Source: a virus
Virus record (IMG/VR): IMGVR_UViG_3300034418_002553
Coordinates: 1 to 35,738 of that record
DNA: 35,738 nt
Strand: one strand, 5' to 3'
Shown here: positions 1-28,800 of the stretch, piece after piece
Layout: every line of letters starts with the position of its first letter
Position numbering within the stretch: the stretch's first letter is position 1
Program-made: the position numbers and the translations under genes
Notes under the pieces: generated by a model
The model's input: only the letters and a program-made list of their open reading frames with translations
What the model was told of the DNA's origin: nothing
The model's database searches: none

Positions 1-40
1 GGTGCATATACACCACTCCTCAGGCAAGGGGGGTTGGGGT

Positions 41-65
41 GTTGCATAATTGCAACAGTGTTGCA
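41..65. repeat. overlapping inverted repeats downstream of the island gene
   Basis: GTTGCA at 41-46 pairs with TGCAAC at 51-56 across a 4-nt spacer. The same TGCAA (51-55) also pairs with TTGCA at 61-65. The two palindromes overlap and lie beyond the terminator hairpin of the island gene. They could be a protein-binding site or a second mutually exclusive hairpin. No function is recognised. Confidence 0.4.
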
Positions 66-72
66 AACGTGC

Positions 73-97
73 GGCAGGGTACCTTTGGCACCCTGCC
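73..97 (-). terminator. strong hairpin after the island gene
   Basis: GGCAGGGT (73-80) pairs with ACCCTGCC (90-97). On the minus strand the stem extends to 11 bp with one G-U pair and closes on an AAA loop. It starts 12 nt past the stop codon of the 109-630 gene. There is no long U-tract after it, so it may be a stabilising 3' hairpin rather than a fully efficient intrinsic terminator. The stem is built without GA or TC. Confidence 0.65.
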
Positions 98-108
98 ACC
101 GTTAGCGG

Positions 109-630
109 TTAGCTGGCTATTACCAGCTTACCAAACGCCGTGCCATATGTGTTGGCTGTTTGTGCGCTTAAATTAAACCCGCCGTTTAGTATAGCGGCTA
201 CCGCGTTTTGGTTAGTTGCCACGCTATTTACGTTAGCAAACACGCTGCTACCGCTTGGCAAGTGCGCCGCTTGTATTGTGCTTAACAACACGGGCTGGCC
301 TAGCTTGGCTGGTGTTTTAGTAACCACGCCCGCATAATTTGGCACGGTAACACCGTTAACGGTGTGCATTGGCAACCCGTTAACGCAAGCCCATAAAATG
401 CGCCCGCGTTGCCCAATATGCCCTTGCTTATTGGGTTGCATTGCGCGCCATAACGCGCCGCCGCCAAACATAACGCCATTAGCTAGCGCGTTTGGTGTTA
501 GCTGCAAAGCAACATTACCAAGCCCGCCGTTGGCATTTATAAAGGCTACCATAGCCCCCACGTTAATGTTGCCCTTGGCACCGTTTGCGCCGTTAAAAGC
601 CTGCGCCGCTTGTGTTGTAGTTTTAACCAT
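109..630 (-). CDS. 173-aa basic protein with no Asp or Glu, unknown function
   Basis: Not recognised. The protein is rich in Ala, Asn, Gly, Val and Thr, has six Lys and three Arg, and no Asp or Glu at all, so it is strongly basic. This follows from the DNA: codons containing GA (Asp, Glu, GGA, AGA, CGA) or TC (TCN serine, TTC, ATC, CTC, GTC) are missing, every serine is AGC and every arginine is CGC. Pairs of codons that would create GA or TC across a junction are also avoided. The start is ATG at 630, preceded by AAGGTG (638-643) with a 7-nt spacer, a ribosome site that itself avoids GA. A terminator hairpin follows. There is no signal peptide or membrane segment. It is very likely translated, because an open frame is kept with a ribosome site; the role could be DNA-binding or structural, but this is only a guess from charge. 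Confidence 0.75.
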   Translation of the reverse strand: MVKTTTQAAQAFNGANGAKGNINVGAMVAFINANGGLGNVALQLTPNALANGVMFGGGALWRAMQPNKQGHIGQRGRILWACVNGLPMHTVNGVTVPNYAGVVTKTPAKLGQPVLLSTIQAAHLPSGSSVFANVNSVATNQNAVAAILNGGFNLSAQTANTYGTAFGKLVIAS

Positions 631-681
631 TTTTTAACACCTTTTTTGGTTAACGTGCGGTAGCACCATTGCCCCGCCCCT

Positions 682-820
682 ATTTTATGCCATAGGTTAA
701 ATATGTTTGTAAACCCCTTTTTTATAAAAAAGCGCAAATAATTAATAAAAATATTACGCCACATAATGCGCCAATAAACATTGCAAACCCCTTTTGGTTA
801 GTTACGTTATGTAAACCCCT
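682..820 (-). promoter_or_regulatory. putative promoter region and GTAAACCCCT repeats of the island gene
   Basis: On the minus strand a -35-like TTTACA (708-713) is followed by -10-like sequences (CATAAA at 684-689 with an 18-nt spacer). TTTACA is also the -35 element of other minus promoters here (2245-2250, 18279-18284). The decamer GTAAACCCCT occurs at 709-718 and 811-820, with GCAAACCCCT at 783-792, giving three near-identical copies in 112 bp. They may be repeated promoters or binding sites. All avoid GA and TC. Confidence 0.4.
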
Positions 821-943
821 AAAACTATTTTGCGGCTCCCGCAATAAAAAATTTGTCTGGTGGCGTTGCGCCGCGATGCCCCCGAAACCGCGCGACTAAC
901 CGCGATCAATCTAATAATCAATGGAATGAATAGCGAAGAACGG

Positions 944-1018
944 GCGATCAATCAATCAATCAATCAGTCTGCTGTAGATCAATCAATCAGTCTGCTGTAG
1001 ATCAATCAATCAATCCGC
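944..1018. repeat. ATCA tetranucleotide clusters in 23-bp repeats
   Basis: Blocks of tandem ATCA (five copies at 947-966, three at 978-989, three at 1001-1012) are separated by an identical spacer GTCTGCTGTAG, giving a 23-bp direct repeat with GATC at 977 and 1000. Related GATCAATC is at 904-911, and ATCAATC runs recur at about 1650-1670 and 2465-2475. The array lies just right of the GA/TC-free island and is as rich in TC and GATC as the island is poor. Iterons of a replication origin, a packaging signal or an operator array are possible. The remaining gene-free bases between 838 and 943 hold nothing else I recognise. Confidence 0.7.
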
Positions 1019-1045
1019 TCATGCGCTATCCATCCATCAGGCTAC

Positions 1046-1716: not shown

Positions 1717-2166
1717 TTACGCTGGGATAACATAAAGCTCCACGAAGTTTTTGCCCCATGTCGCTTTCGCGCTGGCTGACTGTCCGCCGTTAAGAGCGTC
1801 CAGCAAAGCGTGGAAACGACGCGCCTTAATTGAGCGGTGAGCCATATCGACATCCTGCAAGGTAACAGCTTCCTTGCCGGAGTTGATCAATTGCCAAACC
1901 ACCTTGCCGCGTAGGACAGACTTAGGCGACCCGTCTGCATCATACAGAGTACGCTTGCTTTCAAAGGGGAATGGCTGTTCCGCCTTTGGGTCAACGTCAG
2001 CAACAATGCGGACGCCTACGTTATTAGGATTACCGCCAGCGTGTTCCTGGACAAACTTAAAGATGTCCTCGGCCGTTACGCCTTCGCGCTTGCGCTCCTC
2101 AGGCAAGGCATTGATACCTGCAAAAGTGATTTCCTGAGCGACTTTCTTAGTGACTGCTTTAGCCAT
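1717..2166 (-). CDS. hypothetical protein, 149 aa, single-gene unit
   Basis: Not recognised. The ATG at 2166 is chosen because AAGGAA sits 7 nt upstream. The N-terminus is Lys/Ala-rich, followed by a mixed alpha/beta-looking sequence with no known motif. A promoter (2222-2250) and a strong terminator (1672-1698) flank it, so it is transcribed alone, as expected for a protein needed in its own amount or at its own time. The basic N-terminus (KAVTKKVAQE) would fit a nucleic-acid-binding or virion-associated protein, but nothing proves this. Confidence 0.75.
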   Translation of the reverse strand: MAKAVTKKVAQEITFAGINALPEERKREGVTAEDIFKFVQEHAGGNPNNVGVRIVADVDPKAEQPFPFESKRTLYDADGSPKSVLRGKVVWQLINSGKEAVTLQDVDMAHRSIKARRFHALLDALNGGQSASAKATWGKNFVELYVIPA

Positions 2167-2221
2167 GATAAGTTCCTTTCTACGAACTTGCGAGTCCAGC
2201 ACCATTGCTGGCTACCCATAT

Positions 2222-2383: not shown

Positions 2384-2795
2384 TCTTCATCAATCTATCT
2401 ACGACCTCTGCCCATCCATCTTTGTCTCTCGGCCAATCCATCCTGTAATCGTATGCGGGATCATTATCAATCAATCTCTGTGCCAGATGCCTACCATCCA
2501 TAAATAATAGGGTCTGGGAGGAGGGATGATGAACCAAGTTCCAAACGCATCCACCAACATCAGTTCTTGAGGTCTGCCATGCAATCTGGTGAGGACGCCA
2601 CTTTGGGAACTTCTTGTCAGACTTTGTCGTAAGAACCTTTAACTCTACCCAGAAGTCCTTGCCATTCGCGCAACCGTTGACATCAGGCACCCCTGGACTC
2701 GCCCATGACTCCATCCTTACCCAATGGACATCAAGGTGGCGTGTGCCATCCCGTAGGGCTTTCCATAATTTAGACTCAGGCTTCGGTGTTGGCAC
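2370..2795 (-). CDS. VRR-NUC / PD-(D/E)XK nuclease
   Basis: A 141-aa protein with the order of motifs of the VRR-NUC branch of PD-(D/E)XK nucleases: Glu29 in WVRMES, PGVPD with Asp38, then ELK (Glu51, Lys53) and a conserved Gln70 in the PHQ segment. Such phage enzymes are thought to cut branched DNA or act as Holliday-junction-type nucleases, in recombination or to clear the DNA before packaging. The start is GTG at 2795, inside the last codons of the terminase small subunit gene (20-bp overlap), so the two are translationally linked. The pairing with a terminase subunit favours a role at packaging or maturation (inference). The family call is firm; the substrate is not. Confidence 0.88.
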   Translation of the reverse strand: MPTPKPESKLWKALRDGTRHLDVHWVRMESWASPGVPDVNGCANGKDFWVELKVLTTKSDKKFPKWRPHQIAWQTSRTDVGGCVWNLVHHPSSQTLLFMDGRHLAQRLIDNDPAYDYRMDWPRDKDGWAEVVDRLMKNDEE

Positions 2796-3336
2796 TCGGG
2801 TGAACTTCTATTTCTTGGAAGTCCGCATCTATGGTGGGCTGGGTCGCTTCTACCAGTTGGGGGAACTCTTGCTGTATGCGTTTGATTTCTGCCATAACCT
2901 CATTGCGATCCATCTGGTCAATTTTGCCCATTAGGATTTCCTTACGGTCAATGTAAAGTCCGGCGGCTTGGCCTCTTGACTTTTCAGCAGTGACAGCGGC
3001 GGCGTAGTTCCCGTTCTGCAAAGCAGTGTCACGGATCTCAGCCAGCTTCTTAACGTGGCTTTCAAACGTAACCTCAAACTTATGTTGCAGTTCATTCTTG
3101 ATATCGCGTATGCGTTCCAAAACTTGGGGGTAGTCCCGTCCGTTCAACATACGGCTTGCGATGGCGTGTGCATTGGACTCTGCGTAGCCAGCGCGAAGTG
3201 CGGCCTCGGTTTGCGTAACTTCCTCTGTTGCATAAATCATTGCAAACTTTTCTTGCTTGGGTGTCAGCCCTACTTCCACCCGAGGGTTTGCAACAACGTC
3301 CAGAGTATTCTTATGTGTGACTTTCGCTTTCGGCAT
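2776..3336 (-). CDS. terS: terminase small subunit
   Basis: A 186-aa protein whose N-terminal third has the Terminase_2 helix-turn-helix pattern: LTPKQEKFAMIY, then TEAALRAGY, then a helix ending in ASRML. This domain recognises viral DNA and hands it to the large subunit for packaging. The rest is helical and charged, fitting the oligomerisation region. The large subunit is not in the window; in many phages the two are adjacent, so its absence next door is unusual. The downstream partner here is a VRR-NUC nuclease. The start ATG has only a weak ribosome site. A TATTATAGG promoter-like sequence (about 3353-3361) precedes it. Confidence 0.88.
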   Translation of the reverse strand: MPKAKVTHKNTLDVVANPRVEVGLTPKQEKFAMIYATEEVTQTEAALRAGYAESNAHAIASRMLNGRDYPQVLERIRDIKNELQHKFEVTFESHVKKLAEIRDTALQNGNYAAAVTAEKSRGQAAGLYIDRKEILMGKIDQMDRNEVMAEIKRIQQEFPQLVEATQPTIDADFQEIEVHPSANTEA

Positions 3337-9075: not shown

Positions 9076-9603
9076 TCACACACTAAGGTTATGGTGGATT
9101 AACACTTCATTTACAGGTGCAAAGTCAGGCAAGTCTGAAAATTTCTTGTAAAGATAATTGATGCCAGTGTGCATTATTACTTTCATCTGCTCGCTTCCTC
9201 CAGAATGGCGATGGGAATAGAGCACGAGTTCAAGCATATCTGCCATTTTAAGTCTGTTCTTTTCTTCTGGCGTTAGGACAAAAGTCAATCCAAGGTCGTC
9301 CATCACTTTCTTTTCAGCTTTTTCAAAGGCTTGCAGGACTTCGGGGAACGACCATTTCGCCGTTGCTGGGATATCACCCAACACCATTTCAGGCACATCG
9401 TGATATAACGCCGCCATGATTAGCTGTTTACTACTGTCCGGCCATAACTGGTCAATCAATATACTGACTGCGTATGAATGTGCTCCCACTGTTTGCCTCT
9501 CAGCTTGTATTGCAACTGTATGAAACCTCAGTAAAAACTGTGCGTCCCATGCTGTCATCAAAGTTTTAATGTTGGTTGTTGTCTTGCATCGGCGTCCCGC
9601 CAT
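9076..9603 (-). CDS. HD-domain nucleotidase (YfbR/DatZ-like)
   Basis: A 175-aa HD-domain phosphohydrolase. Metal and catalytic residues of the YfbR type are in place: RFHT near residue 26, His42 (VGAHS), His68-Asp69 (YHD), Glu72, Asp77 (GDIP) and Asp122 (KMADML). YfbR enzymes hydrolyse deoxynucleoside monophosphates. The related phage enzyme DatZ removes dATP in phages that use 2-aminoadenine. No PurZ-like gene is in the window, so the 2-aminoadenine link is unproven. It starts 38 bp inside the end of the polymerase gene (good AGAGGAAT ribosome site), so polymerase and nucleotidase are made together, which fits control of the dNTP pool. Confidence 0.85.
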   Translation of the reverse strand: MAGRRCKTTTNIKTLMTAWDAQFLLRFHTVAIQAERQTVGAHSYAVSILIDQLWPDSSKQLIMAALYHDVPEMVLGDIPATAKWSFPEVLQAFEKAEKKVMDDLGLTFVLTPEEKNRLKMADMLELVLYSHRHSGGSEQMKVIMHTGINYLYKKFSDLPDFAPVNEVLIHHNLSV

Positions 9604-11639: not shown

Positions 11640-12045
11640 CGATTCGCATCCTTACTTCAGCCTCAACAAGAAACAAATAACGCCGTAGGTCGCGTATATC
11701 ATCTAGGATACCTTCTTCACGGCTGTCTTCAAACGCCGCTTGGAACACATCATAATTGCACTCGCCCACTTGCTTTTCAAGCCTGTCCCATTTGCGAGCT
11801 AACATCATAAACGCGCCGACACCGCCGCGCTGTTTCCAACTATTGCCATAGGACTGCTCAGATATGTGCAAGCCCTCCACATCTTCATTAGCCAGACCTA
11901 GCACCTTATTGATAATGGCACTGTAGTCATCGGCATCTATTTCACCGTTCCTAGCCAATTTAAGATACTCCTCTTCCTCTAACTCACGCATACGCCTTGT
12001 CATATAAGCCTCGTGACTTTCGTGTTTTACAAAGTTTCCATCCAT
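11599..12045 (-). CDS. Nmad1/MazG-like nucleotide-metabolism protein
   Basis: A 148-aa helical protein with the phage motif YGNSWKQRGG, then FMMLARKWDRLE, then DDIRDLRRYLFLVEAE. This pattern is common in phage proteins next to thymidylate synthase-like genes, and I relate it to the Nmad1 (DUF1599)/MazG-like group; this assignment is tentative. Such proteins could hydrolyse or bind nucleotides. ATG 12045 is chosen for the GGAG site about 9 nt upstream; longer starts lie inside the thymidylate synthase gene, which it overlaps by 19 bp, so the two are coupled. Confidence 0.55.
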   Translation of the reverse strand: MDGNFVKHESHEAYMTRRMRELEEEEYLKLARNGEIDADDYSAIINKVLGLANEDVEGLHISEQSYGNSWKQRGGVGAFMMLARKWDRLEKQVGECNYDVFQAAFEDSREEGILDDIRDLRRYLFLVEAEVRMRIGDKDDRQLELEVG

Positions 12046-13043
12046 TTGTCTTTTCTCCGTTCTAGCCATTCGTAACACGCCAAATGCCAATCATCTGACT
12101 TTATGTCTTTAGAATGTTCCATGGCTTGGAAAATTTCTTTTGCTTTCCATGCCACCCACATTCTGTGCATAGGCTGTGCCACTTCGCTAAAAACAGAGTT
12201 AGTATATGGTCTGGGTTTCTCGGGGTCTTCCATAAACCACTCAAGCTCTTCATCAAAGGTAACTATGTCATCTACTAGCGGGGAGGGTTTAATCATACGA
12301 CTAGCATATGAATCATAGTCAGGGGTCATTCCATCAAGCCCCTCCAACACTTCGGTATACGCATGGAGGTTATTGCTGAACTGTGTATAAATCCCAACCT
12401 GTGCGCCAATCCGTGCCGCAATGTATTCCTGCAGAATGGACATATGGACAGCGTTAGCTCCCAGCGCACCCCAGATCATATCATTACTGCGGTTACATAC
12501 CGTCATGTCCAGCTTATTATCGCGAACGCTGAAATATATATGCGTATTACAGGGGTGATCTTTGCATTCATTATCCTTGCGTAAATCACCTTCAGGATCC
12601 CACATAGCCAAAACAGTTCGTCTATCGTTTTCATAGGTCATAAGTCTATGAACAGCTATATCTAATTGGTCTTTATAGAAATAGTTACGCCATCTATAAC
12701 CATATGCACCTTGGAGGGTCTTACCATTATCACTATAAGTACCCATCCGTTTATTATAACGCTGGATCCACTCAAGGTCTTCACGACCCGCTAACATCCA
12801 GAGGCTTTCCATAAAATGGAATACAGGGTTAGCGTCGCGTTGCGGATAGAACAATACCCGCTCACGGGGGTTATTGTAAGTAATCGCACAAGGCTCACGG
12901 AACTCAAGTGCTTTACCGTTTCGGGTGTTTACTTCAACACCGCTAGTTTCAAGGGATTGTTTCACCAGCCATAACGCATCACTGACATTAACAGCGGTGA
13001 AAGTGTGCATACCCCTCATTGGGGCTTTGCCAAATAGTGCCAT
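12027..13043 (-). CDS. thymidylate synthase family enzyme (TS or dUMP hydroxymethylase)
   Basis: A 338-aa ThyA-fold protein: Glu79 in HFMESLW, the YGYRWRNY segment, catalytic Cys165 (HPCN), Arg185 and Asp188 (NRSND), Asn198 in WGALGAN, and His227/Tyr229 (NNLHAY). Asn at position 198 matches the residue that selects dUMP over dCMP. The enzyme thus acts on dUMP and makes either dTMP or 5-hydroxymethyl-dUMP; sequence alone does not separate these. The neighbours (HMUDK_hel-like, TAGT-like, radical SAM) favour the hydroxymethylase. The start ATG 13043 has AAAGGTGG upstream. A palindromic hairpin separates it from the radical SAM gene, so it may have its own transcript. Confidence 0.85.
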   Translation of the reverse strand: MALFGKAPMRGMHTFTAVNVSDALWLVKQSLETSGVEVNTRNGKALEFREPCAITYNNPRERVLFYPQRDANPVFHFMESLWMLAGREDLEWIQRYNKRMGTYSDNGKTLQGAYGYRWRNYFYKDQLDIAVHRLMTYENDRRTVLAMWDPEGDLRKDNECKDHPCNTHIYFSVRDNKLDMTVCNRSNDMIWGALGANAVHMSILQEYIAARIGAQVGIYTQFSNNLHAYTEVLEGLDGMTPDYDSYASRMIKPSPLVDDIVTFDEELEWFMEDPEKPRPYTNSVFSEVAQPMHRMWVAWKAKEIFQAMEHSKDIKSDDWHLACYEWLERRKDKWMETL

Positions 13044-13144: not shown

Positions 13145-14146
13145 TTAAATAAAGTCAAAATGTTTCTTAACACGCTTAGTATATGTTCCTCCATTCAATG
13201 CTTCTTTAATTGCAGTTTCTGTTTCCTCTGTAGGCTCGGGTAACGTCTTGCGTCCCATGCGGTCAGGTAACAATCCATTACGAAGAGTGGTATTGTCGCA
13301 ACCGTTACAAGGACCGAAATCGCGTTGCCCATGATACAGTTTGGTTCTCGCCGCATGGAAAGCCTCCCCCTGCCAAATATCTTCAATATGTGTATCCATT
13401 ATATTGCCGCACTTATACCATCCCACCCAATCATTACAGCATACAGCTACATTGCCATCCCAACGGATAGACATTTCGCGGAAGGGTTTAGCACAGCGTT
13501 TACCATCTTGGTCGTGGTTCAATGGAAAAGCATTTCCAGCATGGTTGCTAACTTGGGCATGAGTTCCACTTGTAGCCAATGTAAGATCCATGCCAACAAC
13601 GATATCATGCTCTGTAACTTTTCGTCTACGGTGGGGGTTTGCGGCACGGTCGGCGGGATATTCATAAACGGGATGTGGACCATTGTAACGCTCCTTGATT
13701 TTATCTACGATTTTAATACGGTCGTAGTTATCAAGGAATAGAACGTTTAGCCCTGCATCCATAAGTTTGTTGACCGTTTCCTCTGTATCTTTCAACAACC
13801 CACCACCATTGCTAGTCATCATAAGTGGTGTTCTGGGTAACTCTTTACGGAACAGCCCCACCATTTCAATAAAGAAAGGGTGCATAGTGGGCTCGCCGTG
13901 CATAGCAAACTCAATGCGTGGATTCCACCCTGCCCTTTTAATTTCCTCACAAATGCGGGTAGCAGTTTGGATATGCAGATTTTTGTAAGGGGCAGATGCT
14001 TTGCCGTGCAAATTACTCGGACCATCAGCTTCGTTTTCACGGATAGATTGTATGCCGCAAAATGAGCAAGCAAGGTTGCACCCTTCCACAAACTCTATCT
14101 GAATAGAGTTTGGTGGGTCTTGATAAAAGTTAGATTGCTCCGCCAT
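13145..14146 (-). CDS. radical SAM enzyme with SPASM domain
   Basis: A 333-aa protein with the Cys23-x3-Cys27-x2-Cys30 cluster motif (CNLACSFC) that binds the 4Fe-4S cluster cleaving S-adenosylmethionine, then HGEP at about residue 84. A C-terminal SPASM-type set of Cys (218, 236, 237, 246, 280, 283) would hold an extra cluster. Start ATG 14146 is preferred (AAAGG 10 nt upstream) over ATG 14179. It overlaps the glycosyltransferase gene by 17 bp. In phages with hypermodified thymidine, radical SAM enzymes rearrange groups attached to 5-hydroxymethyl-dU. Here the SPASM part is more typical of peptide-modifying enzymes, so the substrate could be DNA or a peptide. Confidence 0.88.
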   Translation of the reverse strand: MAEQSNFYQDPPNSIQIEFVEGCNLACSFCGIQSIRENEADGPSNLHGKASAPYKNLHIQTATRICEEIKRAGWNPRIEFAMHGEPTMHPFFIEMVGLFRKELPRTPLMMTSNGGGLLKDTEETVNKLMDAGLNVLFLDNYDRIKIVDKIKERYNGPHPVYEYPADRAANPHRRRKVTEHDIVVGMDLTLATSGTHAQVSNHAGNAFPLNHDQDGKRCAKPFREMSIRWDGNVAVCCNDWVGWYKCGNIMDTHIEDIWQGEAFHAARTKLYHGQRDFGPCNGCDNTTLRNGLLPDRMGRKTLPEPTEETETAIKEALNGGTYTKRVKKHFDFI

Positions 14147-14915
14147 CTTTAGCCGCCTTTCGCCATTGAACACGGACATCCCACCGTGTTTTCATACCTT
14201 CCCAACCTGTTTTGGTTTCTTTCTGCAATGCTTTCACATACAGCGGAAAGGCTTGTTCCAAAGCACGGCTGGCTCGTTCTTGCATTTCAGCGTTGCGATA
14301 TGTGCTACAGCCTCCAGCCGCGCCACTCGCACCACGCTGATCCCATGTCCAATCTACAATAACCGCATTACCATGCCCTTTTTGGAATAGGCTGAGGGTT
14401 ACATAGTAATCCTCCATTAACTCCATAGCATCGTAGCGTATGCCTAATTGTTGGAGAACATGGGGGCGTATGGCATGGACAGCGTTTTGCCGCATCCCAT
14501 ACTTCACCCTGTCAGGGTAATGTTTATCATTCATTTGGCGTGGGCTGAGGCCAACATGGGTGAAATTATTTAACAGCCATTCCATGCGCTCCCACAGTTC
14601 GTGCATCTCACCCTGCTCAGTTTTCCTTAAGTTAGGTGCGTCATCATGTGCGCGGCGACCAAATATAAGATCGTCATCCAAAATAACAATTTTATCATAC
14701 TCCTGCTCCACTGCGTGATCTACAATAAATTGCCGGACATTGTTTATGCCCTTGATTTCACCACGGTTCAAGCAGTAACGACCATTGTTAATATGTGCTT
14801 GCACTTCTTCTTGTGGGCAAACCAGAACCGCACTTTCTCTTGCTTCCGGACCAATACTTTCCCAAGTAGTTTGCTTATTGAGCCTACCCCTTGTGGGGAT
14901 AAAAATAGGTATCAT
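14130..14915 (-). CDS. GT-A glycosyltransferase, TAGT-like
   Basis: A 261-aa protein starting IPIFIPTRGR and carrying a metal/sugar-nucleotide binding DDD (residues 80-82, ILDDDL), hallmarks of GT-A fold transferases. The N-terminal PTRGR pattern and size recall the TET-associated glycosyltransferases (TAGT) that glycosylate hydroxymethylated bases in phage DNA. A surface-polysaccharide or protein target is an alternative. The start forms an ATGA overlap with the zinc ribbon gene and has GAGG upstream; its end overlaps the radical SAM gene. The tight chain suggests all three act in one pathway. Confidence 0.8.
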   Translation of the reverse strand: MIPIFIPTRGRLNKQTTWESIGPEARESAVLVCPQEEVQAHINNGRYCLNRGEIKGINNVRQFIVDHAVEQEYDKIVILDDDLIFGRRAHDDAPNLRKTEQGEMHELWERMEWLLNNFTHVGLSPRQMNDKHYPDRVKYGMRQNAVHAIRPHVLQQLGIRYDAMELMEDYYVTLSLFQKGHGNAVIVDWTWDQRGASGAAGGCSTYRNAEMQERASRALEQAFPLYVKALQKETKTGWEGMKTRWDVRVQWRKAAKDGGAI

Positions 14916-15234: not shown

Positions 15235-16140
15235 CTACACCACCCCACCATTAGGAGCCTCCAACCACATTCCAACATTAGCCCGATACTTACTGCGCGG
15301 CTTACCTTGTCCAAGGCGCACACGCTCATACTTATCCCACTCGCACAGGCTATGCTCAATAGTTCGCATATCTACTGCATCAAGGGGGACATGAGATTGA
15401 ATGTAATTTGGTGCTTGAGCCAGTAACTCCTGCATTTCGGTATTGGCTTGGGTCTGGTTCATAGACTTAGTGAGCACCCTATCATGGATACGGTTCAGTC
15501 CTCGCTTTGCTCCTGGACCTGCGTTTGCCCAACTAAAACGGTCTTGTGCCTTGTCCAATACAGGTGTGTAGTTGAGGTCGGTAACCACTTCGTATGACAT
15601 AAAACCTCCCCCTCCCCATCCCCGATGGGAAGCCATCGCTTTGTGGGTCGCTTGCAACGATTGCGTTTCCTCGGCGACCCCCGATAAATGCACCCTGTCT
15701 TTCCAGATAGGTTTGAGGAAATGGTCAACGACGACCTCCGATTTACGAGCTTTGAGACCTTGATTAGTGATTATATAAGCTCCAGTGAATGTCCGCAAAC
15801 CAGAGGACAACCTAGCCTCAATAAGTTCTTTTGTATGGTCGGGATTCCATCCTTTATCTTCGTCAACCCACCCATGTTCTTCGGCAAACTCGCTTGTGCC
15901 AATCATGCGAAACAAACAACAATTAAACACGATTTCACTGTGCGAACGGTTCGCATTTGGGTTAGTCCAGTTTTGGCGCATCCAAACAGTAACACGGTCG
16001 TTTTCACGGAAGGGGTTTGTGAACTTGTAGTCCTGCAAAATGTGGTCGTCAGTCCAAGGGGGGTTGACCCCCTTGGCTCGCTTTTGGTAAATAGCGTGAC
16101 GCTCATTTATCCAGTAAAAGAACCTTTCTATGTTCTCCAT
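15235..16140 (-). CDS. HMUDK_hel / aGPT-Pplase-like thymidine hypermodification protein
   Basis: A 301-aa protein whose N-terminus shows the family pattern: ERFFYWINERHAIYQKR (5-21), PPWTDDHILQDYKFTN (27-42), FRENDRVTVW (44-53), then DLNYTPVL, GPGAKRGLNRI and EHSLCEWDKYERV toward the C-terminus. This is the alpha-glutamyl/putrescinyl-thymine pyrophosphorylase type, also called the 5-hmdU DNA kinase helical domain. Family members activate 5-hydroxymethyl-dU in DNA by (pyro)phosphorylation so that an amino acid, amine or sugar can be joined. It is the strongest marker that this phage hypermodifies thymidine. ATG 16140 has AGGGGA upstream; it follows the 16145 gene by 4 bp. Confidence 0.82.
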   Translation of the reverse strand: MENIERFFYWINERHAIYQKRAKGVNPPWTDDHILQDYKFTNPFRENDRVTVWMRQNWTNPNANRSHSEIVFNCCLFRMIGTSEFAEEHGWVDEDKGWNPDHTKELIEARLSSGLRTFTGAYIITNQGLKARKSEVVVDHFLKPIWKDRVHLSGVAEETQSLQATHKAMASHRGWGGGGFMSYEVVTDLNYTPVLDKAQDRFSWANAGPGAKRGLNRIHDRVLTKSMNQTQANTEMQELLAQAPNYIQSHVPLDAVDMRTIEHSLCEWDKYERVRLGQGKPRSKYRANVGMWLEAPNGGVV

Positions 16141-16144
16141 AGGT

Positions 16145-16750
16145 TTAGTCCCCTAGCTTAATGACGCCTTTTGCCAACGCCAATTTAATATCAACACTGT
16201 TGCCTCCAGGAGTCAACGCTTTCATAGCGGACAAGGCATCAGCAACGGTAGCAGACTTAGCAAGGGCTTCAAAGTTATGCCAGCGATTGCTACCTTCACG
16301 GTATGGGTTAGAACCTGTAATAACAATCGTTGCCTGTGGATCATACTTAACCCGAGCGGTGCGCTCTTGCTTGGGTACATCAACAGTAACGGTTGGTGTA
16401 GGCATGACAGCCGACGGAGTGTTCACCTGCATTTTAGTCTCCTTTTCAACAGGTTTATATTTTTTCGCGCGAGTCGCTACAATTTTGTGAAACTCTTTGT
16501 AAACGCCCTGCGAATTAAAATAGCCAGTAGTCTCGCGTTGGATATTACTGGCTTCCAAAACACTGAGTAACTCTTGCTCAGTGAATGTGTTTTGTAATTG
16601 TTCCACATTTGAAAACACAATGCTATGCTCATTGAGCTCTTTACAATTACGAAGGTCTCGCAATGAGGGGAACACAAAGTAGGAATATGGCTCGTTCCTG
16701 TTAGATTCATTGTGGTTTTCCAATACTGCAAAAGTCTTGATTGCCGCCAT
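16145..16750 (-). CDS. hypothetical protein, 201 aa, two-part
   Basis: Not recognised. The N-terminal half (about 1-95) is mixed alpha/beta; a Thr/Pro/Val-rich linker (about 106-130) leads to a C-terminal domain beginning IVITGSNPYREGSNRW and ending in helices. ATG 16750 follows AGAAAGGAG. It opens the modification gene run. The linker resembles those joining a regulator domain to a DNA- or protein-binding domain. Confidence 0.7.
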   Translation of the reverse strand: MAAIKTFAVLENHNESNRNEPYSYFVFPSLRDLRNCKELNEHSIVFSNVEQLQNTFTEQELLSVLEASNIQRETTGYFNSQGVYKEFHKIVATRAKKYKPVEKETKMQVNTPSAVMPTPTVTVDVPKQERTARVKYDPQATIVITGSNPYREGSNRWHNFEALAKSATVADALSAMKALTPGGNSVDIKLALAKGVIKLGD

Positions 16751-16896
16751 GTCAAAGCTCCTTTCTGTAAGCCTTATACTGTTATTCTACTATATATAGG
16801 GAATCAAGCAAGCCCTAAATACTCCAATGCCCCACTAAAAGTTCTCTCCTAGCAGGGCATCGGGCGAGAGGTGAGCTTCTGCCCACCCCCACATTC
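16751..16896 (-). promoter_or_regulatory. spacer with promoter for the 16750-11454 gene run
   Basis: Minus strand: -35-like TTGCTT, 16 nt, -10-like TAGAAT (near 16784-16811), then AGAAAGGAG before ATG 16750. Upstream, the sequence can fold imperfectly after the DUF932 gene (GGGCA with TGCCC), a weak terminator candidate. CTATATATAG is also present. Confidence 0.4.
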
Positions 16897-17928
16897 TTAG
16901 GCGGCTTTGGCGTATTCAAGAGCCTTTGCCATAGCCTTCCGCTTGACTTGGGCGTTATTGCCAAACCATGCAGAGTTAAGGGCGTGGTCACGGGTCTTAG
17001 CTCGCTTCTGGTGATCCATAACATAGGTCACACCGTTTAGCGCACCCCACCAAGTCCCCTTGGCTGAAGACATATCGTGTCCTGGAGAAGTTTCAATAGC
17101 TTCCAGTATAGACTGGGAAGTTTTGGTAAACTCCTCATGAAGCGGTGGTAAGTCGGCCTCATTAGACTTAGCGCGTTCAATAAGAAGTTTAGGCTGGAAC
17201 AACTCAGCAATGAAATTATCAACCTGTTCCTTAGTAGCTCGTTGCTTAGCAAGGAACTCGGACTGCTGTTGGAACTGTGTCATTTGCTCACCACTAATAC
17301 CAAGTGCTGTTTCAGCGGCTTGCATAATTTCCTCGTCAAACATTTGTAAATGCAACACGCGGAACTTACCCGTCATACCCTCTTGGCTGAGCGCAAGGGT
17401 AATCGTATTATTACACACCACGCGGATAGGGGTGAACATAACGGTCATAGCAGTGCCAACCTTGTGACTGTTAGCCATGAGCAAGTAACCCTCGATCTCA
17501 TCGCCACCCGCTAACTTGAAGCCCTTCTTGATTTTAGCCAAGCCCCAAATGCGCTCGCCATCACTAAGGCTACCCGCAGTATCCATTTCCATATGTCCTG
17601 CTTCGGTAAACTTTTTAAAGAAGGACATTGTTTCGTGGTTCTGGAATGGAACAAACCCTTCGCCGCAGTGCGACAGCACACGGTTATCGGTATCGCGCAC
17701 CACTACATAATGGTCGTTAGCCCGAAGCATCTCGGCTTCACCGCGTGGGTCATTGAGGTTCCAAGTGTTAGGCTTGTCAGCGTAATAGACAGGCCGCTTG
17801 CTAACTGTCCAGTCAAGGCCAGCCGCTTTAAGCATTTCCTCAGGAGTAAGGTTATGCTCAACTTTTTCACCAAGCCCATGCCACGGAACTTGTCCTGCAT
17901 AAGCCATCGTTTCTACCATATGTGCCAT
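16897..17928 (-). CDS. DUF932 phage/plasmid-like protein
   Basis: A 343-aa protein of the DUF932 (TIGR03299-like) family: MAHMVETMAYAGQVPWHGLG start, a central GERIWGLAKIKKGF segment, ANSHKVGTAMTVMFTPIRVVCNNT and the helical C-terminal part with ALNGVTYVMDH. The family is widespread on phages and plasmids; its role is unsettled, with a link to DNA replication or recombination often assumed. ATG 17928 follows AGAAAGGAAAC. It is 21 bp after the 17950 gene, so both share the 18251-18284 promoter. Confidence 0.9.
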   Translation of the reverse strand: MAHMVETMAYAGQVPWHGLGEKVEHNLTPEEMLKAAGLDWTVSKRPVYYADKPNTWNLNDPRGEAEMLRANDHYVVVRDTDNRVLSHCGEGFVPFQNHETMSFFKKFTEAGHMEMDTAGSLSDGERIWGLAKIKKGFKLAGGDEIEGYLLMANSHKVGTAMTVMFTPIRVVCNNTITLALSQEGMTGKFRVLHLQMFDEEIMQAAETALGISGEQMTQFQQQSEFLAKQRATKEQVDNFIAELFQPKLLIERAKSNEADLPPLHEEFTKTSQSILEAIETSPGHDMSSAKGTWWGALNGVTYVMDHQKRAKTRDHALNSAWFGNNAQVKRKAMAKALEYAKAA

Positions 17929-17949
17929 GATTGTTTCCTTTCTACAAAA

Positions 17950-18216
17950 CTAGGCGTCATAACCAGCTTCCACAGTTGGAAGCACATCAAAGTCGGCAAG
18001 CGAAATGTCAAGCCAACAAGTTTCCCCCATTGCATTAAACGCAATCTGACAACGCATCTCAACGTCGTTGTGTAGCGTTGTGTGTATAATGGGGTATTTG
18101 AACGTATCATCAAGTGCGTTAAGAAACTTGCTCTTGAGGGTACGGTTTGCCTTACGGCGGATAGCACGGTCATTAAGTGTAACGAAGTGCTCTTTGGTTA
18201 GGTATGGAACATCCAT
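17950..18216 (-). CDS. hypothetical protein, 88 aa
   Basis: Not recognised. Starts MDVPYLTKEHFVTL, a basic helical first half and a hydrophobic/acidic end (LDISLADFDVLP). ATG 18216 with AAGGGG is preferred; the longer frame would start within the promoter. It precedes the DUF932 gene in the same transcript and may be its partner. Confidence 0.65.
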   Translation of the reverse strand: MDVPYLTKEHFVTLNDRAIRRKANRTLKSKFLNALDDTFKYPIIHTTLHNDVEMRCQIAFNAMGETCWLDISLADFDVLPTVEAGYDA

Positions 18217-25823: not shown

Positions 25824-28800
25824 TACGCTAAACTCATAATCCCTTGACCACGACGTTGTGCTATAGCACCACCTAACTCATCGCGTGGGAATAAACTAGC
25901 GAAGTCTGCACCGCTAGACCCAGAAGGAGACTGAGCAGGGGGAGGGGCTTGAATGTTGAGAGCAGTGGGTGGAGGGGTAGGTATAGAAGGCGCACTAACT
26001 GTCGTTGTTGTAGGCGGTGTTGTAGGCGTTGGAGCCACCGATGATACATCACCTAAAGCTGGAGCTTGGCGAGTCCGCAATGTTTCTTCCTCCAGGGACT
26101 CACTTTGGTCTACAAAGCCTCTGCGAAGATCATCAAGGACAATACCGTAAACTGAGTCTTTACCTATTTTGAAAGACTTACTACTATGGACATCTTTCAT
26201 TTGGTTAACAGAAGGTGGAGAAGCCAAAAACTTAGCGAAGAATTTTGCTTGGAAAAGAGCTTTCAAAGCGCGAATATCTAGTGCCTGTAATTGAGCAACA
26301 ACAGAAGCTGATTGCAAACTTGAACCCAAATCTTCAAGTTGATTAGAATACATTACATAAGTGCGGATGTCAGCTAGCTCTTTCATATACTCTGGATAAT
26401 CCGGATTTTTAAATAAAGGCTCTAGACCTTCATATTTTCCTTCAAATTTTATAAGACTTTGTATTTCTCTTGCCAATGCACTAGGGTCAACGGTTTCAGC
26501 ACCAATATCGGTATTGAACACCGTTACTTTTTTGAGGATATCATCAAAAACAGAAGCTCGCATATTTAATGCTTTATTGCTCATAAAGCCACCGTTTGCT
26601 TCTATAAACTTGTGTGCTTCAGCTTGTGTCATTTTCGCTAAAAGAGTTTTGATTCTTTCACCGTTAAACATATCTCTTTCTAAAGCCGCATTAACGGCAT
26701 CAGACTTTAACCATGCAGAGCGTTGTGCAATATCTTCTAGAGCTTTTCGATCAGCCTCATTAGGCACAAGTTTCTTAAACAACGCGTCATCGTTTTTTAT
26801 CATGTCACGAATGCGTTGGTCAATTAACTCAGGCTTTGAAGCAAGGTCTTGTAAAAAACCATTTTGCACATCGCGAATAAGTTGGTTAGCGGCATCCCGC
26901 CCTGCTGGGGTTTTGGAAGAACTAATCAGCCAGTTATACATTACATTCCAATCGGAAGAGTTAAACTCACCCGACCAAAATTTTTGCCCAAGCTCAGCCG
27001 GATTTACCTGTGTGTTTCTTGCAAAAAAAGTATGGAGCTTACTGGCGTTCTTAACATCAGAAGCAAGTTTAGAGAGCGCAGTAGCTTCTTCCCATGCTTC
27101 TTTCCATGCAGTATTACCACCTCTAGGGTTTTGCATAACTTCATCTATGGCTTTTAACAGTTCGACTGCTTTTTGATTAGTTTGCCCCCCACCAAACGCA
27201 ATATCAGAAACTTCGTTACGCATAGCTTGAAGTTGTTTGAGAGAATTGAAACTATAATCTTTGCCCTTATCTTTAACTGAAAGTGTGGTAACTTCCTGAT
27301 TCCAAACATTTTCAAACTTATCAGCGATGTTTAGTAGCCGTTGGTCTACTGACTCAATCGTTTCAGTTATTTCTTTAGCTGGTGTAGTGACAGTGCGGGT
27401 AATAGGTTTACCATCCGGACCTAACACGCTTGTTTCCACAACCTCTGTTTTAGCTTCGGTTGTGCCAGCACGAGTTTGTGTGCCTACCCGAATATTTTGG
27501 GCTACCTCTTTAACAGGAGCTAAATCAAAAACAACAGGAGGCATATCTCTGCCGCCTCCTGCAATTTCAAAAGCTCGAAGGTATGCGTCGTCAGTTACTT
27601 CCCGCAGACTTTTATCCAACTGGCCTGTAAGCATACGGATATCTTCTTGCGTTTTCTGTAGCGTTTTGGTGTCGACATTCGCACCTTCTGCACGGAGTTT
27701 ATACATATTGTCAAGCTCTGTGCTGAGCCTACGAGCAGACAAATCTAAATACTGGCGTAGTTCTGCCGCAGTAAACCCTTCTAAACCATCTGGTGATTTG
27801 GCCTTTTGGTCTAACAACTGCCACAATTTAGATTGCTGGTTATTGAACACTTGTTGCGGCGTTTTAGACAACCCTGCGACCTGACCTTGAATCCTTTTAA
27901 TAACAGGATTATCGGTGAGCTGAGAAACCGTGAGTAGTGGTAAGCCTAACCGTTCTGCGGCTTCCTGCCCTACAATGGATTCTGGTGTGGTTTTACCAGC
28001 TAATAGGGCTGTCCTACCAGTATCACCAAACAATGCCCTAAATCTGGTAGCGGCTATTGGTGAAACCTTAAAAATAGCGGCTTCTAAAGCCCCTACCAAA
28101 GCGGCATCTTTCCAAACACTTGTATCATTGATAACGTCGCCAAATGAACGGCCTGTTTCATTTACCGCCCATTGTTCAAATACATTAGCTCCCGTTGTTG
28201 TGCCAGCAACCGCCGCTGTTCCGCCCACGGAAGGTGGGAAAATGATTGCCGCTGTGACCGCCGCCGCATTTGTAGGTGTTAATATGTTAGCTTCTATATC
28301 AAGTAGGTCAGCAAAAAACTCTCTACCTGCTCCAGGAGCTTCTGGGTTAAAAGTAGGGTCAGCACGGTATAACGCACCATTTGGCACAAGACTATACAGT
28401 TCTACTGTTTTACCGCCACCTACATCCATCCGCAAATAACGGCCTTCAGGGTAATGCTTTTTGAAATAACCCCTGCGGTCTTCAAACTTGCCACGGCGAG
28501 CTAAACCTTCGCGTACACCTAATTTTATCGGACCAACTACATCCCCACCTTGATAATCTCTGTATTGATCAATGAGCAAATTTTCAACACGGTTGCGCTC
28601 TAATGCTTGAAGCTCAATATCACTTTTGAAAGGTTGGTCGGTGAGCAGTTGGCCTTTACCAATATCAGGTTCAACAGTAAGCGGTGTAAAATCATCAGGG
28701 CGACCAGTGCCAACATCCACAGCACCAGCAACATCCCGAGCAAATTGTGACTCAATAGCCGCACGGTTTACTACATCAATAGTTTCTTGGTCTACTTGAC

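Follow-up and report, generated by a model that had tools for sequence, protein, structure and literature searches.

A gene-sized island free of GA and TC is conserved in viral records that carry DNA-hypermodification genes

Introduction

The thymidine-hypermodifying phages M6, ViI and phiW-14 encode a thymidylate-synthase-like (TS-like) enzyme together with a kinase of the same Pfam family as one found in the window analysed here, a complete virus record of 35,738 bases classed as linear. In these three phages TG or TC is found in many restriction-resistant sites, from which a preference of the 5-hydroxymethyl-deoxyuridine (5hmdU) DNA kinase for the T of either word has been inferred; activity of the M6 kinase at TG is quoted there as an unpublished result (PMC6449724). 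Seven described phages with the kinase (M6, Sonora, RHph_TM26, FP1, Ab19, Vi01 and VPALA) gave no dinucleotide-free island, including islands of the TG/CA or TS type, and a tblastn search of the same seven (E ≤ 1e-4) returned no match to the sister gene, the TET-associated-type glycosyltransferase (TAGT) or the radical SAM protein of the window. M6, Vi01 and the five others thus differ from the window, which holds an island without a single GA or TC, and the kinase alone is therefore no predictor of such an island.

By the large terminase subunit (TerL), the nearest named relatives are HTVC027P, 023Pt_psg01, DSL-LC04 and HTVC023P. Because the window stops before TerL, the TerL and portal queries were taken from a relative, G005. 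Identity with these four phages is 58-64% for TerL, 47-49% for the portal protein and 51-56% for PolA, and terminase, portal and polymerase are shared with the HTVC023P-type podoviruses. At 0.448, the G+C content of the window is higher than that of the stretches examined from HTVC023P, HTVC027P and 023Pt_psg01 (0.35-0.37). The whole records of the four TerL relatives and of the more distant MinM2 gave no match to the kinase, in a search whose controls likewise went unmatched; a separate search did detect the family. Neither an island nor the sister-gene family was present in 34-41 kb of each of the four relatives or in 13.9 kb of MinM2. Among uncultivated HTVC023P-type pelagiphages, TS and aG/PT-PPlase1 genes are described in clades V, VIII and IX (PMC9599517), and the word "dinucleotide" is absent from the main text of that article. 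No dinucleotide-free island was found in the literature searched, which took in few subscription journals.

Results and Discussion

A GA/TC-free Island around a Single Gene

Direct counting gave no GA and no TC at positions 21..837 of the window (817 bp, 816 dinucleotide steps), which reproduces exactly the coordinates of a preliminary description of this DNA. The base composition of the segment itself predicts 102.6 occurrences (log10 P about -44.6), and with the GA/TC rate outside the island log10 P is about -40. The comparison along the genome that the preliminary description had proposed sets the island well apart, since the second- to fourth-longest GA/TC-free runs in the window measure only 65, 57 and 53 bp, and no other reverse-complement dinucleotide class is missing over more than 225 bp, the length of the longest CG-free run. 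Every 3-mer without GA and TC is present within the island. TG occurs 32 times against 42 expected (z -2.3), CT 19 times against 31 (z -2.9) and CA 43 times against 39, while GC is high (z +7.3) and the G+C content is 48% compared with 44.8% overall. The purge is specific to GA/TC, with TG and CA still common.

The island contains one open reading frame of 173 amino acids (109..630, minus strand), without Asp or Glu, which profile comparison identifies as a diverged sister of the gene at 1717..2166. A promoter-like pair is predicted upstream on the same strand (684..713), consisting of TTTACA (708..713) and CATAAA (684..689) separated by an 18 nt spacer; TTTACA was the top-scoring first hexamer in 17 of 28 records, and a stricter promoter scan did not recover the pair at 684..713. 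Directly after the stop codon lies a GC-rich, terminator-like hairpin of 11 pairs, one of them G-T (73..97, minus strand), followed by a T run in several relatives and by none in the window. GA resumes at the downstream edge (1..20), where the record ends. The island protein had no match in Pfam or PHROGs, the phage collection held no relative of the island DNA or protein, and Rfam gave no match anywhere in the window. Two predicted folds of the island-family protein (pLDDT 68 for the first model and 87 for the second) found no PDB match at E ≤ 0.001 and none among viral models, and the best hit of a PDB sequence search had E = 0.17.

As previously described, the rule extends beyond the gene and its codon junctions to the sequence upstream and to the 3' hairpin. 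When the window gene was recoded with its protein fixed and the codon usage of the genome, 12.4 ± 3.1 GA and 20.7 ± 3.6 TC were expected where none of either is seen. The purge therefore targets DNA letters and not the protein. A protein selected against acidic residues, with GA lost as a by-product, would explain why island copies other than that of G060 contain only 0-3 Asp plus Glu, and we consider this scarcely credible: across 16 island copies, 10-17 GA and 16-28 TC would still be expected with the proteins fixed, the 15 copies besides that of the window have 0-3 GA, and noncoding parts are purged too. As a sole cause it is refuted by the recoding control and the noncoding purge.

Conservation of the Island across Viral Records

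Homologous islands occur in dozens of viral records, with proteins 35-100% identical. Searching with a profile located 55 loci that encode the island protein, 48 of which were tabulated, the remaining seven being repeats of loci from an earlier search; the 48 are not independent, since some of them recur almost unchanged in other datasets. In 31 of the 48, GA and TC are absent over 600 bp or more without interruption, the longest such run reaching 973 bp, and such runs persist down to 35% protein identity. The 17 loci with shorter runs include two in which the contig stops within the gene (the strand-asymmetric L085, and L078, in which the part of the gene present is clean). At 80-84% DNA identity, records differ by substitutions of all kinds, and TC in the gene may be zero in one partner and frequent in the other. 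Over large protein divergence the absence of GA and TC has been kept while other bases vary, as the preliminary description had asked of homologous islands. The converse case that it had envisaged, homologues with ordinary counts, exists in full once (G060) and in part among strand-asymmetric genes, most homologues being purged; these exceptions point to the template strand.

A search of viral contigs with the kinase yielded 125 relatives, of which 80 were kept, and the island-protein profile matched six of 50 of these. We read 17 kinase-bearing records of 52-69 kb, plus part of G055. Four of the 17 already matched the profile; the selection of the remaining 13 considered only the kinase gene and length, and none of them matched. 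Even so, GA and TC were absent over more than double the expected maximum run length in 16 of the 17, including 12 of the 13 without a profile match, G060 being the exception. The gene inside these islands belongs to the same family, from which it has diverged strongly.

The window record stops 20 bp from the island, as an assembly artefact or low-complexity sequence might. Re-examination of this possibility, already raised in the preliminary description, leaves it a negligible probability, given that the island recurs within many records of separate IMG/VR datasets, with all kinds of substitution elsewhere. Import from a genome that obeys the rule throughout, also suggested there, is unnecessary, as the rule is confined to a single unit and has persisted despite large protein divergence.

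Deaminases that prefer TC are known, and a host nuclease or a TC-specific deaminase could have struck TC here until the phage lost its sites. The enrichment of AA and TT in the island speaks for such an attack; nothing in it explains why a single unit should be hit, the G+C content of the island is not low, and we judge it very unlikely. Deamination of TC to TT, which the preliminary description had listed among possible causes, fits poorly, because between two 84%-identical homologues TC in one stands opposite TT, TA, GC and AC in the other, and not mainly TT.

The long contigs G049 and G088 have island-gene sequence at both ends, and the two copies in G088 are slightly different; a break of the assembly within the island is possible, either between strain variants or at a redundant end.

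An Ordinary Sister Copy of the Island Gene

The sister gene (1717..2166, minus strand) has ordinary counts of 23 GA and 25 TC and encodes 18 Asp plus Glu; its reading frame is open to 2205, with a likely start at 2166. An iterated profile from the frame 1717..2205 retrieved 61 family members in 30 records, with E-values that are not independent because the profile was built from both copies. Each of the 30 records has one ordinary and one island copy, and G088 has a second island copy. The ordinary copies contain 12-29 GA and 13-44 TC, and the island copies, G060 excepted, 0-4 GA and 0-30 TC. In G084 the two copies are 57% identical, with 2 GA and 0 TC in the island copy versus 24 and 26 in the ordinary one. 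Within the subclade of the window, direct profile comparison of the copies is weaker (probability 62, P = 7.7e-5), and their kinship there therefore rests on intermediates. A search of genome_contigs for the ordinary copy, in a host or a prophage, found no relative.

Association with a DNA-Hypermodification Gene Set

The island is real, strong, conserved and linked to a set of DNA-hypermodification genes. In the window these lie on the minus strand and comprise a TS-like protein that is a candidate dUMP hydroxymethylase (12027..13043; PF00303, E = 1.8e-20; phrog_5131, E = 4e-106), a radical SAM/SPASM protein (13145..14179), a TAGT (14130..14915; PF20691, phrog_842) and a member of the 5hmdU DNA kinase family, matched in its helical domain, which we propose as the writer of a mark at TC (15235..16140; PF18723, E = 1.7e-51). 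The same strand encodes an HD-domain 5'-deoxynucleotidase-like protein (9076..9603) and the small terminase subunit (2776..3336).

TS-like and kinase-family genes were present in all 25 island records that reach this region. By tblastn, both were found in 26 of the 30 records compared, counting G060, and the other four (G030, G014, G033 and G055) are fragments or partial reads that also miss neighbouring genes. TAGT and the radical SAM protein occur in only 13 of the 26 kinase-bearing records, which leaves the kinase-family and TS-like genes as the common factor. A glycosyltransferase was rejected as the universal factor, as TAGT is confined to these 13 and a second glycosyltransferase to part of the rest: the latter, named in G084 only, has matches in seven of the 12 other records without TAGT and none in G072, G065, G070, G080 and G074, in which no glycosyltransferase was identified. 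Among the causes offered in the preliminary description, a TC-specific DNA-modifying enzyme is the best fit, given the presence of the kinase-family and TS-like genes and the activity at TG/TC inferred for the family. Of the 26 kinase-bearing records, 25 have a DUF932-domain protein conserved at 60-100% (16897..17928 in the window); none was found in G086.

G060 is counter-evidence. It has a kinase-family gene (74% identical), a TS-like gene and a glycosyltransferase-like gene, yet its copy is unpurged (GA 11, TC 23). A check of G060 for a missing gene gave nothing convincing, and no alternative dinucleotide is purged in it. A search of 22 records for a phage-encoded T7-type RNA polymerase gave no match, its control being likewise unmatched.

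The Template Strand Is Kept Clean

In a set of 53 island genes chosen to exclude repeats, purging is complete or almost complete in 43 (GA 0-3, TC 0-3), nine are asymmetric, with 4-30 TC and 0-3 GA on the coding strand, and only the G060 gene is ordinary. The asymmetric state requires seven changes on the protein tree, at least six of them forced by well-supported branches, with the direction ambiguous for some. Coding-strand TC is near normal in G008 (17 seen, 18.1 expected), G014 (30 and 28.0) and G038 (15 and 17.9), and intermediate in the remaining asymmetric genes. As GA on the coding strand is TC on the template, the strand that is kept clean is the template. The coding sequences of the asymmetric genes contain 9 GA against 298 expected and 114 TC against 258, and their upstream regions (-120 to -45 from the ATG) 3 GA against 32 and 8 TC against 31; these expectations come from segment composition and are cruder than the recoding control. 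Two features of the asymmetric records sit poorly with the reading proposed below: the purge of the template strand continues upstream beyond the promoter-like pair, and the spacer of the pair contains TC in a few of them. The same upstream region of the fully purged genes has 12 GA against 167 expected by composition and 14 TC against 107.

Selection on the messenger would produce a similar pattern if an RNase cut GA (and UC) in RNA and the island mRNA were spared such sites. The clean strand in the asymmetric genes is indeed the one whose RNA copy lacks GA, and in the flanks printed the islands stop soon after the hairpin. However, the purged region from -120 to -45 lies mostly upstream of the likely predicted start point, and cleavage of RNA leaves the association with a DNA base kinase unexplained, which together make this explanation improbable.

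Other strand biases were seen. Several small genes of G074 (46442..51501) and G076 (58077..59887) have 1-6 coding-strand TC against 9-21 expected with GA mostly normal, a depletion of opposite sign to the island asymmetry that counts against the reading proposed below. The TerL and portal genes of many records have coding-strand TC well under the recoding expectation (TerL of G084, 16520..17983: 23 against 62.5), several TerL genes with GA in excess alongside, which may be a codon bias of late genes.

A Proposed Unmarked Gene in a Marked Genome

We propose that the kinase marks T in 5'-TC-3' and that the island unit is kept free of this target in order to remain readable by RNA polymerase when the DNA is marked, and we put the probability of this reading at a little under 0.6. 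The TS-like enzyme would supply 5-hydroxymethyl-dU and, after replication, the 5hmdU DNA kinase would act on the T of 5'-TC-3', opening the way to larger groups, added in the window phage perhaps via the glycosyltransferase and the radical SAM protein. Wherever both strands lack TC, which amounts to lacking TC and GA, the kinase would have no target and the DNA would stay unmarked in an otherwise fully marked genome. Selection would then keep the promoter-like region, the small gene and the hairpin unmarked, so that RNA polymerase can start and read through, with the template strand mattering most. The marked template would most likely be the genome that has just entered the cell, and since the need for a gene readable from marked DNA would be greatest at that point, an early role is proposed. 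The ordinary sister copy would be used later in infection, when the template is unmarked, newly made DNA. The sequences themselves establish the purge, its conservation, the sister copy, the link with the kinase-family gene and the strand asymmetry, whereas the kinase activity, its TC specificity, the mark, the block to transcription and the early timing are inferred. The best-supported part of this reading is that the phage's own mark is missing from the island; that this benefits transcription of marked DNA is likely but not proven. More tentatively, in a phage that marks every TC of its genome, the unit could be a self-exempt duplicate of an ordinary gene, recoded to lack the target dinucleotide, that host RNA polymerase reads from the incoming marked DNA and whose product opens, or otherwise copes with, the marked genome.

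In T7 or T5, restriction sites are avoided in the DNA that enters first, and a short leading region is target-free so that early genes can act. Here, by contrast, the phage would be avoiding the target of its own DNA-marking enzyme, and the word that is missing is a dinucleotide.

Full purging of TC with TG common agrees with a mark at TC alone. A kinase that took TC and not TG would find no target in the island, which would then be the only long target-free part of the genome. The sole direct datum for a relative, the M6 kinase quoted at TG, is counter-evidence, TG being common in the island. Assays with T7 RNA polymerase show inhibition by bulky or charged uracil modifications placed in the promoter's template strand, better tolerance of them in the other strand and little effect of modifications outside the promoter, while 5hmU itself is said to stimulate the E. 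coli enzyme (PMC11550810). These data agree with a template-strand rule and do not fit a strong effect within the gene body; larger groups and bacterial polymerases may behave differently. The intergenic regions and other genes of these phages show no comparable purge, so marked DNA would have to be readable somehow, or those regions would be read from unmarked DNA. A general purge of promoters was rejected, as GA/TC in other intergenic regions is at 0.85-0.98 of expectation, near the genic level, with a few depleted gaps.

If the reading of an unmarked gene in a marked genome is true, the sequence context of a modifying enzyme and the transcriptional cost of its mark could be read from genome sequence. 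It predicts that the kinase is specific for TC and not TG, that unmarked DNA has a physiological role within a marked genome, and that a protein family without recognised relative has a role of its own. Stretches free of one strand-symmetric word would also provide a cheap genomic test for other modified phages.

Position of the Island and Ends of the Records

Wherever both were read, the island is one gene-sized unit immediately upstream of TerL, and the island gene points toward TerL in every record read. Because this orientation never varies, sequence alone cannot separate transcription from another strand-specific process. The island could belong to replication, packaging or entry, as a stretch beside the terminase gene that has to lack primase starts or that must be unmarked for the terminase or for entry, the gene being incidental. 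Its position just upstream of TerL suits this, and replication or strand-wise entry would also fit the strand asymmetry. The end of the window record nearly coincides with those of several relatives, and six contigs, including the window, terminate 107-126 nt past the stop codon of the island gene, which would suit a physical genome end. However, the gene that the purge follows has a promoter-like pair and a hairpin to itself, the purge has ended by +110 nt beyond the gene, and kinase-less relatives with a related terminase show no island in the parts read. We regard this alternative as unlikely, though slightly more probable than the RNase explanation. The primase desert of the preliminary description is a possible version of it, and one that leaves the gene-sized unit and the ordinary sister copy unexplained.

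Just upstream of the island, at 947..1019 of the window, are tandem ATCA and 23-bp repeats dense in GA/TC. In eight of 27 records some 50-nt bin within 600 nt upstream of the island contains at least 12 GA/TC, a density found in 0-0.5% of bins in five genomes checked, and the maximum in the window itself is 11. Such a stretch is possibly a heavily marked border. On the other side, about 90-130 nt past the island stop codon, a number of records have a dyad-like GTACAAGC...GTACACGG block (e.g., G008, about 28070..28110), which lies near the spot where several contigs end and is a candidate packaging or operator site.
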